NCBI GenBank assembly: GCA_947627955.1
Contig: CANQXZ010000001.1
Coordinates: 1-64,000 of the forward strand
From: an uncultured Clostridia bacterium
GTDB lineage: Bacteria; Bacillota; Clostridia; Christensenellales; Borkfalkiaceae
Direction of reading: 5' to 3'
Length of the DNA: 64,000 nucleotides
In this document: piece after piece, positions 45,872 to 64,000 of the stretch
How positions within the stretch are numbered: the first letter of the stretch is position 1
Layout of the letters: each line of letters begins with the position of its first letter
Made by a program: the position numbers and the translations under genes
Notes under the pieces: model-generated
What the model saw: the letters and a program-made list of their open reading frames with translations, nothing else
Told to the model about the DNA's origin: nothing
The model's database searches: none

Positions 45872-46348
45872 TTAAGTATTTTCGAGAGCCTCGTATTTTT
45901 GCGCGACTTCGGCAATGAAAGCCTGCGCGGCGTCGAAATCTTCTTCGGAGGGGTGACCCTTCGCCATGCCGCCGCCGATAGCAAATATGAACCATTTGCA
46001 AAGCCCCTTGCAGCCGAAGTTCCCGAGTACGACTTTGTTTTTGCTCTCGAGCAGTCTGACCATCTGTTTGTTGTATTTTTCGTAATTTCCCGTGCCGCTC
46101 GTGGAGAACACGAAGACGCACTTCTTATCGTTGTCGAGACCCTTTGCAAATTCAATTAGTTTGCCGTCGAATTTTCCCGCATACACGCCGCTGCCGAATC
46201 CGATCACGTCGTAATCGGCGGGTTTGTAGTACTTAATATCGCCGATCTCGGCGATAGTGGCGGGAGCGGCTTCTGCCATAGCTTCGGCTAACTGCAAGGT
46301 GTTTTGGCGGTGTTTGGAACTGACTACTATCAGAATTTTCATGGTCAT
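45872..46348 (-). CDS. Flavodoxin-like protein
   Basis: FMN-binding electron carrier fold of 158 residues. The phosphate loop is SSKHRQNT (near 10-17), followed by DVIGFGSGVYAGKF and FSTSGTGN in the flavin-contact positions. The late insert with GCKGLCKW resembles the flavodoxin family found beside regulators in Clostridia. ATG 46348 overlaps the stop of the PadR gene upstream by 4 bases; a second ATG at 46342 is possible. The partner is unknown; translational coupling links it to the membrane regulator. Confidence 0.82.
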   Translation of the reverse strand: MTMKILIVVSSKHRQNTLQLAEAMAEAAPATIAEIGDIKYYKPADYDVIGFGSGVYAGKFDGKLIEFAKGLDNDKKCVFVFSTSGTGNYEKYNKQMVRLLESKNKVVLGNFGCKGLCKWFIFAIGGGMAKGHPSEEDFDAAQAFIAEVAQKYEALENT

Positions 46349-47823
46349 TTACTCAGCAAATAGAAGATTATCGCAAAGATAGGGATATTCAGCGCAATGA
46401 AGCAGGGAATTACTATCTTTGCCATTATGTCGCCCGCCGACGTGAAGTTGACGCCGATCAGAATCGATACGAGGAAGATTATGAGTATCGAAATAACGCA
46501 GACTATCGTGCATGCCGACAGATACAGAAGGGAAGTCGGCTTGCGCGTGCTCTTACATACGCCCGTAAAATTCAGCGCGCCGAATATGAGTACCTCAGCC
46601 ACGGCAAGTGCGAGTATCACGAACGGATAGGCGACGGAAGCATGCAGTTCCTTTCTGAATATGAGCGTGAGCGCGAATTCAAGCAACATCAGCACGCCGA
46701 CTATCAGCGAACATTTGAAGAGCACTTCGCCGCGGTTATATTTTTTGCGCCTCGGACCGACCGAATAGTCGGATGTTTCCACCACGAGCCCGTCGTTGCG
46801 CTTTTTGCTCTCCGCCTCGACCGCCTTGACGTTCTCTACCGTAACGGCTACGGGACGGGGCGACGTGCGTTCGCTTATCTGCACGGGCTGTGGCGCAGGT
46901 TGCGGCGCAGGCTGTCTGACCGTATTCATGAACAGGTTGTTCACGAGGTTTCTGTAATCCCGCTCCGTCTCGGGGCGGCTGTTATAGATAAGCCTCTCCG
47001 TGTCTATCTCGTCGGCGTACGGCGCATATTGCTCGGTCGGCTGCTCCTCGACGGGCTCGGATATGAGCCTGAGATAGTTCTCGTGCACGGCATTACGCTG
47101 TTCGTCGCTCATTTGGGGCTGCTGCGGCTCGCCCGATTCGGCTACCGCCTCACCGAAAAGCGTTTCGGATTCACTGCGGCGTATTGTTTCGGGCTCTTCG
47201 GGCTCAGCAGTCTGCGGCTCCGCGGCTTCCGTCACGGTCTCTTCCGTAACGTCCTCGTGCTTTATCTCGACGACCTGCCCGCTATCGGGTTCGTCGTACT
47301 TGACCTCGCGCGCGGCTTCTTCGTCCTCGTCATCTTTCTGGACGGGCACACGGGAGGTAGAGCTTTTGAGAATTTTGAAATCGACGGCGGAGGGAGGAGG
47401 CTGGGTAAAATCGAAATTCCTGTCGGAGATAAGGCTGTCTATGACCGTCCTTGAATATTCCCATTCGGCTTGATTTTTTTCGGCTATTTCCCTGCCGCTG
47501 TCGGTAAGGGTATAGTACTTTCTCCTGCCGCCCTGCGAAACTTCGTCGTTCTTCCAATATGCGTTGATATAGCCCTGACTTTCGAGCCGTTTCAGCGCGC
47601 TGTATAAGGTGGGCTGTTTTAATGTGTATTGCCCGTGGCTCTTCGATTCTATTTCTTCGATTATCTCGTAACCGTATTTATCGCGCTCGTAAAGCGTGCG
47701 AAGGATAATAGTGTTGATATGGCCGCGGATGAGGTCTGCGCTTATGGCGCTCTTTGTCTCGGAGTCGGCTGCGCGGCTTGTTTCTTCGTCGTCGCGTTCG
47801 GGCTCGTTGAGTTCGTCTTCCAT
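46345..47823 (-). CDS. PadR-family regulator fused to a membrane domain
   Basis: A 492-residue protein with three parts. Residues about 32-120 form a PadR winged helix: TIILRTLYERDKYGYEIIEEI, TLKQPTLYSALKRLESQGYI and GGRRKYYTLTDSGRE. Residues about 120-365 are an acidic, Glu/Pro-rich linker. Residues about 370-490 hold four hydrophobic helices. PadR proteins are normally soluble and about 110-180 residues long, so this is a predicted membrane-anchored regulator. GGAGGA precedes the ATG. A near-palindrome covers its -10 element. The flavodoxin gene is coupled downstream. Confidence 0.82.
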   Translation of the reverse strand: MEDELNEPERDDEETSRAADSETKSAISADLIRGHINTIILRTLYERDKYGYEIIEEIESKSHGQYTLKQPTLYSALKRLESQGYINAYWKNDEVSQGGRRKYYTLTDSGREIAEKNQAEWEYSRTVIDSLISDRNFDFTQPPPSAVDFKILKSSTSRVPVQKDDEDEEAAREVKYDEPDSGQVVEIKHEDVTEETVTEAAEPQTAEPEEPETIRRSESETLFGEAVAESGEPQQPQMSDEQRNAVHENYLRLISEPVEEQPTEQYAPYADEIDTERLIYNSRPETERDYRNLVNNLFMNTVRQPAPQPAPQPVQISERTSPRPVAVTVENVKAVEAESKKRNDGLVVETSDYSVGPRRKKYNRGEVLFKCSLIVGVLMLLEFALTLIFRKELHASVAYPFVILALAVAEVLIFGALNFTGVCKSTRKPTSLLYLSACTIVCVISILIIFLVSILIGVNFTSAGDIMAKIVIPCFIALNIPIFAIIFYLLSK

Positions 47824-47843: not shown

Positions 47844-47863
47844 TGTGTCTATTATATCACACA
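47844..47863. promoter_or_regulatory. Candidate operator over the PadR-gene -10 element
   Basis: TGTGT (47844-47848) and ACACA (47859-47863) form an inverted repeat with a 10-base centre that contains most of the -10 hexamer (47851-47856). Autorepression by the PadR domain is plausible, but the known PadR pattern is ATGT-N8-ACAT, which this does not match. Confidence 0.4.
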
Positions 47864-47879
47864 CCGCAATATATGTCAA
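47851..47879 (-). promoter_or_regulatory. Sigma-A promoter of the PadR-flavodoxin operon
   Basis: Minus strand TTGACA (47879-47874), 17 bases, TATAAT (47856-47851); a consensus-quality promoter. Confidence 0.88.
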
Positions 47880-47940
47880 TATATTGGAGTTATAAAAAGT
47901 ACTATGTCACACATAATTTAATATTTTACGGCTCGATTGA

Positions 47941-47998: not shown

Positions 47999-48727
47999 AT
48001 GTACAGAAATATTTGCGAATACGGGATAAAATATACAGACGTCGACGCGTACGACAATCTCAAACCCTCCGCGCTGCTTTCGTTTTTGGAGGAGTCGGCA
48101 TGCCGCTCGGCGGACGAATTGGGATTCGGCTACGACGTCATCTCTCCGCGCGGTCTTGGGTTCATAATCGTGAACAACTATATCGAATTGTATCGCCCCA
48201 TAAAGCTCGGCGAAAAGCTCTCGGTCCACACGTGGCCGTTAAAGCCCCGCCACATGATTTTTCTGAGGGACTACGAGCTGTTCAGCGGGAGCGAGAAGGT
48301 GGGAGTTTCCACAACGCGCTGGTGTATGATAGACACGCGTTCGTTTACCATGACGCCCGCGTCGTCATTTTTCCCGGAAGGCTTTTTCGACGGCTACAAT
48401 ACAGAACGGAGCGTGGATTTTAAAAATTGGAAAATACCGTCCGCCTCGGGCGACGCGGTCTATACCAAGCTGATAACCTATTCGGATTACGATCACTATT
48501 TCCATGTAAACAACGCCAAATACGCCGATTTTTTGCTCGACGTGTTTTCCGCGGAGGATTTCAAGGATAAGTACATTTCGAAATTGCAGGTGACATACTC
48601 CAAGCAATGCAAAATGGGCGAGCGGCTCGACATGTACAAGTCGCCCGACGGCGACGGCTTATTGGTCGAGGGGCGCGTCGGCGACGAGCCGCGGGTGCTG
48701 TTCAGGGTGGAATTCAATGGAATATAA
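47999..48727 (+). CDS. Acyl-ACP thioesterase-like double-hotdog protein
   Basis: Predicted to release fatty acids from acyl carrier protein. Residues are consistent with two hotdog domains: IKYTDVDAYDNLKPSALLSFLEE begins the first, with IELYRPIKLGEKLSVHTWP, and the second includes TYSDYDHYFHVNNAKYADFLLD, where the Asn-His pair is typical of the active site. Length 242. The start at 47999 lies directly behind the leader; codons open further upstream belong to the opposite-strand gene region. A metallopeptidase gene overlaps the end by 11 bases. Confidence 0.85.
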   Translation: MYRNICEYGIKYTDVDAYDNLKPSALLSFLEESACRSADELGFGYDVISPRGLGFIIVNNYIELYRPIKLGEKLSVHTWPLKPRHMIFLRDYELFSGSEKVGVSTTRWCMIDTRSFTMTPASSFFPEGFFDGYNTERSVDFKNWKIPSASGDAVYTKLITYSDYDHYFHVNNAKYADFLLDVFSAEDFKDKYISKLQVTYSKQCKMGERLDMYKSPDGDGLLVEGRVGDEPRVLFRVEFNGI

Positions 48728-50787: not shown

Positions 50788-51719
50788 TGCACAGCGTTTT
50801 TATAGACGGAAAATCGGGAACGTGCGGTCTCCAGATATACGAGCGGCTTTCCAAGCGGCAGGATATCGAAATAATTTCTCTCTCGGAAGAGAGGAGAAGG
50901 GATGAAAAGGCGCGCGCGGAGTGCCTCAATTCCGCCGAAATAAGTTTTTTATGTCTACCAGACGACGCCGCTGTGCGTGCGGCAGAACTCATAAAAAATC
51001 CGAACGCAAGGGTAATCGACGCCTCGACGGCGCACAGAACGGCTCCCGGGTGGGTTTACGGATTTCCCGAACTCTCGGCAAAAAGGCGGGCGGAAATAGC
51101 CGCGGCAAAGAGGGTAGCCAATCCCGGTTGCTATGCCACGGGCTTTATCGCCATAGCGGCGCCCCTTGTCAAAGGCGGCTTTGTGGCGGCGGACTATCCG
51201 TTTACCGTTTTCGGGCTCTCGGGCTATTCGGGCGGAGGAAAAAGGGCGATCGCCGAATACGAGAGCGAAAAGAGAAGCCGCTTTCTTGAAGCTCCGAGGC
51301 ACTACGCCCTCGCGCTTGCGCACAAGCACATACCCGAAATGGTGGCGGAGTGCGGACTTACGCGAAAGCCGCTGTTCAATCCCGTCATATGCGATTTCTA
51401 CTGCGGCATGAGCGTGAGCGTACCCATTCATGTAAGTATGATGGAAAAAAAAGCCTCTCCGGACGCCATTAGAGAGTATTTTGCAGAGTACTATGCGAGA
51501 CAGAACTTTGTAAAAGTGCCGCCCGCGTCGGAAATTCCCGACTATTTGCCCGCCAATCTGCTTGCGGGCACAAACGAATTGCATATATTCGTCGGCGGCA
51601 ATGGTGAGCAGATATTCATATCGAGCGTGCTCGACAATCTCGGCAAGGGTGCATCAGGCGCCGCCGTCCAGAACATGAATATCATGCTGGGGCTTGACGA
51701 AAGAATTTCTTTGGTTTAA
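50787..51719 (+). CDS. argC: N-acetyl-gamma-glutamyl-phosphate reductase (short type)
   Basis: NADPH-dependent third step of arginine synthesis. VFIDGKSGTCGLQI at the N-terminus and the active cysteine in ANPGCYATG (near 115-118) fit the shorter ArgC type 2 lineage of about 310 residues, which differs from the roughly 345-residue form of Bacillus. Also present are GLSGYSGGGK and HKHIPEM. Shares one base with argG. Confidence 0.93.
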   Translation: MHSVFIDGKSGTCGLQIYERLSKRQDIEIISLSEERRRDEKARAECLNSAEISFLCLPDDAAVRAAELIKNPNARVIDASTAHRTAPGWVYGFPELSAKRRAEIAAAKRVANPGCYATGFIAIAAPLVKGGFVAADYPFTVFGLSGYSGGGKRAIAEYESEKRSRFLEAPRHYALALAHKHIPEMVAECGLTRKPLFNPVICDFYCGMSVSVPIHVSMMEKKASPDAIREYFAEYYARQNFVKVPPASEIPDYLPANLLAGTNELHIFVGGNGEQIFISSVLDNLGKGASGAAVQNMNIMLGLDERISLV

Positions 51720-63310: not shown

Positions 63311-64000
63311 ATCTGTTATACCAATCTTCGTTGATTATGTCGGGTATCTTTACCTGCGGAGCCTTTCCGCCATCGCCGATCTTTACCGCGGGGAGGCATA
63401 TCTTTTCGCCGTAATACCTCTTTCCGTCGCATGAGTAGTATGGCGTGACGGAGTACAGGTATGTTCCCTCTTCGGGCTCGTCTTTAAAATTCTTTATCCA
63501 TTTTCCGTCGTATATGAGCTCATTTTTGCCGTTTTTAGCCCTATTTATCAAATATGAATAGTACTTTGTCTGACATAATTGGATATTTACGGCATTGTTT
63601 TCAAGAAATATTTCGGGTTCGGTAATTTCCGGACGGGAAAATTTTGTCGAGTGTTCTTTTGGCAGATTGTTTTCGAGCACCTTGATCTTCAGCTTGTTTA
63701 TCTGAGGAGAAAGCGGGTCGGCAATGACGATTTTGTTCTTTGAGTTATAGTCGTCGGCGTCGATTTCTACCGTCTTTGTGCCCTTTTCGGTCTCGAGCGG
63801 GGCGGGAATATGCGAGGAGTAGAGCTCTGAAAGTATTTCGGCGGATATTTTGCAGCAGTCTTTGCCGCCGCTTATGTCCGCACGCTTGTTGTTTTTGTCT
63901 CCAAGCCATACGGCGACGCAGTTTTCCGAAGTGTAGTTTACGCTGTATGCGTCGGTGTTTCCATCCTTGTTGCCGCATGTGCCCGTCTTTGAAGCGACGT
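63309..64000 (-). CDS. Class A penicillin-binding protein, C-terminal part
   Basis: Only the last 230 codons are inside the window; the frame runs in from the right edge. Reading from the edge, the transpeptidase motif VASKTGT is followed by YTSENCVAVWLGD, the usual strand after KTG in PBP1A/1B-type enzymes. After that comes a non-catalytic tail of about 170 residues ending EDWYNR, with a fibronectin-like feel (EGTYLYSVTPYYSCDGK). The start, glycosyltransferase domain and most of the transpeptidase domain lie outside. A start at GTG 63680 would cover only the tail and is not credible. Confidence 0.82.
   Translation of the reverse strand, partial: VASKTGTCGNKDGNTDAYSVNYTSENCVAVWLGDKNNKRADISGGKDCCKISAEILSELYSSHIPAPLETEKGTKTVEIDADDYNSKNKIVIADPLSPQINKLKIKVLENNLPKEHSTKFSRPEITEPEIFLENNAVNIQLCQTKYYSYLINRAKNGKNELIYDGKWIKNFKDEPEEGTYLYSVTPYYSCDGKRYYGEKICLPAVKIGDGGKAPQVKIPDIINEDWYNR

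Follow-up and report, generated by a model that had tools for sequence, protein, structure and literature searches.

A PadR-type protein with four predicted membrane helices and a polar motif clustered near the chromosome terminus in Clostridia

Architecture of the padR-4TM gene and protein

The window, i.e., the whole 64,000-nucleotide stretch of DNA that was analyzed, carries a gene (padR-4TM) encoding a 492-residue protein that combines a PadR winged helix with four predicted membrane helices. The gene, as read from the ORFs of the window, starts with an ATG and has a ribosome-binding site. Its parts, its promoter, its neighbors, and three copies of a sequence described below are as follows.

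45872–46348, minus strand: flavodoxin gene, an optional neighbor (Pfam Flavodoxin_3, 2.3e-11; present in 22 of 67 loci)
46345–47823, minus strand: padR-4TM gene, 492 residues, consisting of PadR winged helix, disordered linker, and four-helix membrane domain (ORF, Pfam, hydropathy, relatives)
46360–46713, minus strand: four predicted transmembrane helices, residues 371–488 (hydropathy, AlphaFold2, relatives)
46729–47403, minus strand: variable linker, residues ~141–365, acidic and proline-rich (composition, linkers of relatives)
47419–47745, minus strand: PadR winged-helix DNA-binding and dimerization part, residues 27–135 (Pfam PF03551, PDB PadR matches, AlphaFold2 model)
47851–47879, minus strand: putative padR promoter, TTGACA (47874–47879), 17 bp, TATAAT (47851–47856) (sequence reading; relatives have a similar layout)
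47891–47917, minus strand: first copy of the terminus-type site, near the padR promoter, ATTATGTGTGACATAGTACT followed by a tail (matches the 20-mer perfectly and precedes the -35 box by about 12 bp)
47999–48727, plus strand: divergent acyl-ACP thioesterase-like gene (neighbor in 64 of 71 loci)
51480–51506, minus strand: second site copy, with three mismatches, within the argC reading frame (comparable places in genomes G025, G061, and G013)
63553–63579, minus strand: third site copy, with one mismatch, ATTATGTCAGACAAAGTACT, within a penicillin-binding-protein-like reading frame (relatives carry this variant as well)

The Pfam PadR model (PF03551) matches residues 40–113 with an E-value of 1.1e-19 and 70.6 bits, the curated cut-off being 27, and the closest PDB sequences are PadR regulators, all of which bears out the canonical PadR winged helix of the preliminary description. 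An AlphaFold2 model of the PadR part aligns to PadR structures with Z scores of up to 13. The linker had been described as acidic, proline-rich, and ~245 residues long; the composition was confirmed (charged, acidic, Pro/Gln-rich, low hydrophobicity), and the length was corrected to about 225 residues. Hydropathy places four hydrophobic helices at residues 371–389, 401–419, 440–458, and 470–488, and AlphaFold2 models the C-terminal 147 residues as four long helices (mean pLDDT 85.9), in agreement with the membrane domain proposed earlier. A known fold was rejected for this domain: Foldseek returned no match with an E-value below 1, VIA matches did not exceed the level of common helical bundles, and no solved structure was a convincing relative. 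The distribution of charges, judged by eye, fits a location of both the DNA-binding domain and the C terminus inside the cell, and the protein is predicted to be localized in the membrane. The usual PadR protein is a short soluble cytoplasmic repressor, whereas this chain of 492 residues joins a DNA-binding domain to predicted membrane helices and has the architecture of a transmembrane transcription regulator.

The fusion is not the product of a sequencing or frame error, in line with the preliminary description: all 78 complete homologous ORFs from other genomes are intact, the frame is open in relatives without internal stops, and exactly four helices are predicted in each of the 78, with linkers of 169 to 602 residues. 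The genomes surveyed are nearly all metagenome assemblies. PadR-TM is present throughout the genus wherever the locus is assembled, and relatives occur in several further families of the order; the seeming absence in four genomes (G005, G016, G019, and G031) was dismissed because the rny neighborhood is missing there or lies at a contig end. The closest named records belong to Candidatus Coproplasma and uncultured Clostridia.

Membrane-coupled DNA-binding proteins of other types have been described. ToxR, CadC, and BcrR also join a DNA-binding domain to membrane helices, four of them in BcrR, and control few promoters, whereas for padR-4TM one site lies at its own promoter, the majority are in other parts of the terminus domain, and the main putative targets are terminus sites (see below). 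HAAS–PadR signaling pairs likewise couple a PadR winged helix to a membrane component, but PadR is there a separate protein paired with the HAAS membrane protein (PMC11237479), whereas here the two parts are fused; the HAAS–PadR Pfam models gave no match in the padR-4TM protein. A survey of transmembrane regulators (PMC10269533) makes no mention of PadR in its main text.

The motif and its distribution around the terminus

Nearly all relatives have a conserved sequence of 20 to 27 bp, ATTATGYNNGRCATAGTACT(WTGYAWA), ahead of the padR promoter. It was found in about 75 of the 78 loci with enough upstream sequence and is also kept in genera whose divergent neighbor differs. The region 47844–47914, earlier proposed to be bound by the protein, indeed holds this deeply conserved candidate site. 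Forty-two copies from three genomes define an asymmetric motif of ~27 bp, ATTATGT[CG][AT][GC]RCATAGTACTWTGYAWA, in which two inverted repeats overlap (TATGY-NNN-RCATA and RCATA-GTAC-TATGY). The PadR operator is ATGT-N8-ACAT, and the spacing of the inverted repeats in the motif differs from this. A perfect 20-bp palindrome over the padR -35 box (CAATATATGTCAATATATTG, 47867–47886) was the first operator candidate and was discarded because it is not kept in relatives. By analogy, the site beside its own promoter suggests that padR may be autoregulated; the genes of Tus and RTP, two proteins of fork traps, are autoregulated via a ter site in their promoters (PMC10331603).

Allowing at most two mismatches in a 17-mer core, the window's own genome (G000) has 14 copies of the site, compared with none for the reversed control. 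Relatives mostly have 10 to 33 copies per genome, and the reversed control gives 0 to 2 in most genomes. Markov simulations of terminus contigs yielded 0 to 1 copies, as against the 10 to 23 observed, and in three genomes the motif was recovered from over-represented words of the padR upstream region. Some copies lie between genes, and others fall within several genes, where both strand and reading frame vary; intergenic positions are favored in some genomes (in G029, 14 of 23 copies lie outside ORFs).

On contig C1 of the window's genome, copies are spread over 47.9–157.8 kb. The GC-skew flip (about 100 kb), a dif-like inverted repeat (102.76 kb), and the gene of a XerS-like recombinase (102.9–104.0 kb) all fall in this stretch; dnaA is on another contig. 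Six of the 14 copies are on other contigs that are not placed on the chromosome. G025 and G029 share this arrangement with G000: in all three, the GC skew flips inside the site cluster, where one dif-like inverted repeat and a XerS-like recombinase are located. Dispersed sites are concentrated in the terminus domain, as in MatP/matS-type systems. The single dif-like repeat beside the recombinase (AACTATTCGTAAAAGCTGCCTTTTACGAATAGTT, G000:C1:102757–102790 and xerS loci L270–L281) is a candidate for the single-recombinase dif of these Clostridia.

In most genomes the sites point one way on one arm and the opposite way on the other. Counted about xerS in 13 related genomes, the orientations are 57 minus and 16 plus on one side and 69 plus and 10 minus on the other; the pooled Fisher p value of 7e-17 overstates the certainty, as these genomes share ancestry. 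Polarity is also seen in single genomes (p = 0.0062 in G029 and 0.0047 in G061), in another genus (G167, p = 0.0045), and in another family (G137, p = 0.0014). A fork trap likewise has asymmetric sites that form two oppositely oriented sets about dif; in the window's own genome the polarity is weak (four minus and two plus on one side, two plus and two minus on the other).

Families f3, f6, and f24 have PadR-TM beside xerS, yet motif counts showed no enrichment there, and a de novo motif search in f3 and f6 contigs found nothing. The motif is therefore not universal, and in these families PadR-TM may recognize a different sequence or be active only close to dif. As a separate observation, contig C2 of G038 (family f3) carries short tandem repeats, made of TTAATAGCTTCATAGC and TTTGCA units, at about 98.4–98.6 kb and 92.05–92.09 kb.

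Co-occurrence of protein and site

The presence of the site goes together with that of the protein. G091, a genome of the same family that is 98% complete, lacks PadR-TM and has no sites, and so resembles a natural knockout. The site follows padR and not its divergent neighbor, as seen at seven loci in which the thioesterase is replaced. In family f29 the padR promoter carries a variant, GCATAGTACTATGCAAA, which is the right-hand part of the motif; perfect copies of it number 16 in G078 (control 0) and 0 to 1 in G091, G038, and G041. In family f19 the protein is only 27 to 28% identical, and padR (54 kb) and xerS (60 kb) lie 6 kb apart at a skew flip, with polar sites. PadR-TM directly adjoins xerS in families f3, f6, f10, and f24.

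On contigs C3, C12, C14, and C19 of G078, sites come in pairs about 25 bp apart (GCATAGTACTATGCAAA ... CAGAGTACTATGC); these pairs look like a doubled form of the terminus site.

Another protein, e.g., the XerS recombinase, could bind the repeated sites; padR-4TM would then be just one of the targets regulated near the terminus. In many genomes xerS, too, is flanked by sites, and in B. subtilis XerD is active at additional sites of the terminus (PMC8669397, PMC10945525). We nevertheless consider such a binder quite unlikely: the motif tracks padR through changes of neighbor and covaries with it in f29, and f3, f6, and f24 have xerS without enrichment of the motif. The sequence of the dif-like repeat next to xerS (TTCGTAAA...TTTACGAA) is not that of the motif, for which reason we also rejected the sites as XerS core sites.

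The preliminary description saw in padR-4TM a regulator that senses a membrane or redox signal and forms a redox-linked pair with the flavodoxin. Membrane-bound DNA-binding regulators are common (PMC10269533), one site sits between divergent promoters, and the padR stop codon does overlap the flavodoxin ATG (ATGA), as had been reported. However, only 22 of the 67 loci with enough sequence have the flavodoxin directly downstream, and the other 45 lack it there; redox pairing therefore does not characterize the padR-TM system, and the flavodoxin probably stands outside it. The thioesterase is replaced in 7 of 71 loci, all of which retain the upstream motif, and many sites are intragenic. An ordinary transmembrane transcription regulator controlling the flavodoxin and the thioesterase would leave terminus clustering and polarity unexplained, and we regard it as very unlikely. 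The clustering of site copies at the terminus and the XerS neighborhood point to chromosome-terminus biology rather than redox gene regulation.

Possible roles at the terminus

The explanation that we consider likely is that padR-4TM encodes an autoregulated, membrane-anchored terminus-site protein that works in a way similar to MatP or RTP/Tus and is homologous to neither. It takes as its starting point what was computed, i.e., architecture, motif, clustering, polarity in most genomes, skew-flip location, co-occurrence, and xerS linkage; we infer from these the binding of the motif by PadR, the membrane location of the bound protein, and the effect of binding. In such a mechanism, a PadR dimer would bind the ~27-bp asymmetric site with its two overlapping inverted repeats. 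About 10 to 30 such sites, mostly in a domain of 100 to 250 kb around dif/xerS and mostly opposed on the two arms, would be occupied, and the long disordered linker and the four-helix domain would tether the terminus domain to the membrane. The tethered domain would meet DNA travelers (replisome, DNA translocase, or SMC) in a direction-dependent manner, before chromosome dimers are resolved at dif, and the site at the gene's own promoter would provide autoregulation, as for tus and rtp.

The closest parallel is RTP/ter of Bacillus subtilis, in which nine 32-bp ter sites, each with two imperfect inverted repeats, fall into two oppositely oriented sets near dif that span ~10% of the chromosome (PMC13220808). 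Like padR-4TM, RTP is a winged-helix protein with asymmetric sites of ~30 bp, one of them at its own promoter (PMC10331603), and here too the gene lies in the terminus domain and roughly a tenth of the chromosome is covered. The site-bound protein could thus be a polar replication fork trap of the RTP or Tus kind, arresting forks that arrive from one side, with membrane anchoring being secondary or holding the arrested fork. This is possible but doubtful, because some sites on each arm point the opposite way and up to 33 sites are many for a trap. RTP is, moreover, small and soluble, whereas the present protein is of the PadR family, with a long linker and four predicted membrane helices; the RTP model (PF02334) is not among its Pfam matches at E-values up to 0.1. 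RTP does not appear among the structural neighbors listed for the PadR domain model, which by itself speaks neither for nor against a shared fold. Tus/Ter of Escherichia coli shares the polar site groups and the site in the gene's own promoter, but Tus is a soluble monomer of another fold, with about 10 sites over ~43% of the chromosome (PMC13220808).

MatP/matS of E. coli resembles the present system in that one protein has tens of dispersed sites that define the terminus domain, and in the proposed link to the segregation machinery. Terminus sites are where MatP and XerD exert their action on SMC complexes (PMC8669397; PMC10945525), nine matS over 253 kb having maximal effect (PMC10945525). 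Bound sites might accordingly unload SMC, as MatP does for MukBEF or XerD for Smc–ScpAB, or orient FtsK/SpoIIIE near dif. The number of sites, their spacing of ~10 kb, and the size of the domain are similar to those of matS arrays, and the linkage to xerS fits as well; matS is, however, palindromic and without polarity, and we judge SMC unloading or translocase guidance to be unlikely. MatP also differs in being soluble and of another family, whereas here the sites are polar and the protein is predicted to be membrane-integral; no MatP model was among the Pfam matches at E-values up to 0.1.

We favor the membrane-tethered terminus marker, and the polarity suggests that the protein also meets a moving machine. 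A more far-reaching version, to which we give slightly less than an even chance, is that one order of gut Clostridia has an independent, hitherto undescribed terminus system. In it, an integral membrane protein derived from PadR would hold the replication-terminus domain directly at the membrane by means of polar sites, would serve both as anchor and as gate for forks or translocases, and would have evolved together with XerS/dif.

To our knowledge, few proteins mark the bacterial terminus (Tus, RTP, MatP, and XerD at its sites), all of them soluble, and the fork traps that we know of are limited to a small group of bacteria. Terminus-site proteins are thus a known functional class; as far as could be tested, the type of protein, its membrane integration, and the motif have not been described, and the literature searched contained no PadR protein in terminus biology. 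If our reading is true, a common regulator family has given rise to a widespread membrane-integral terminus marker, one more solution reached independently, which would connect the terminus to the membrane physically and directly, and the annotation "PadR regulator" can hide a chromosome-structure protein. Polar sites, natural loss, and covarying motifs would make this a clean comparative system for the purpose of terminus organization.

In family f9, an ORF near lexA, hflX, and xerS (L058:7313–8416) encodes the linker and the four-helix domain without PadR; this PadR-less protein may represent either a loss or the ancestral form of the membrane part.
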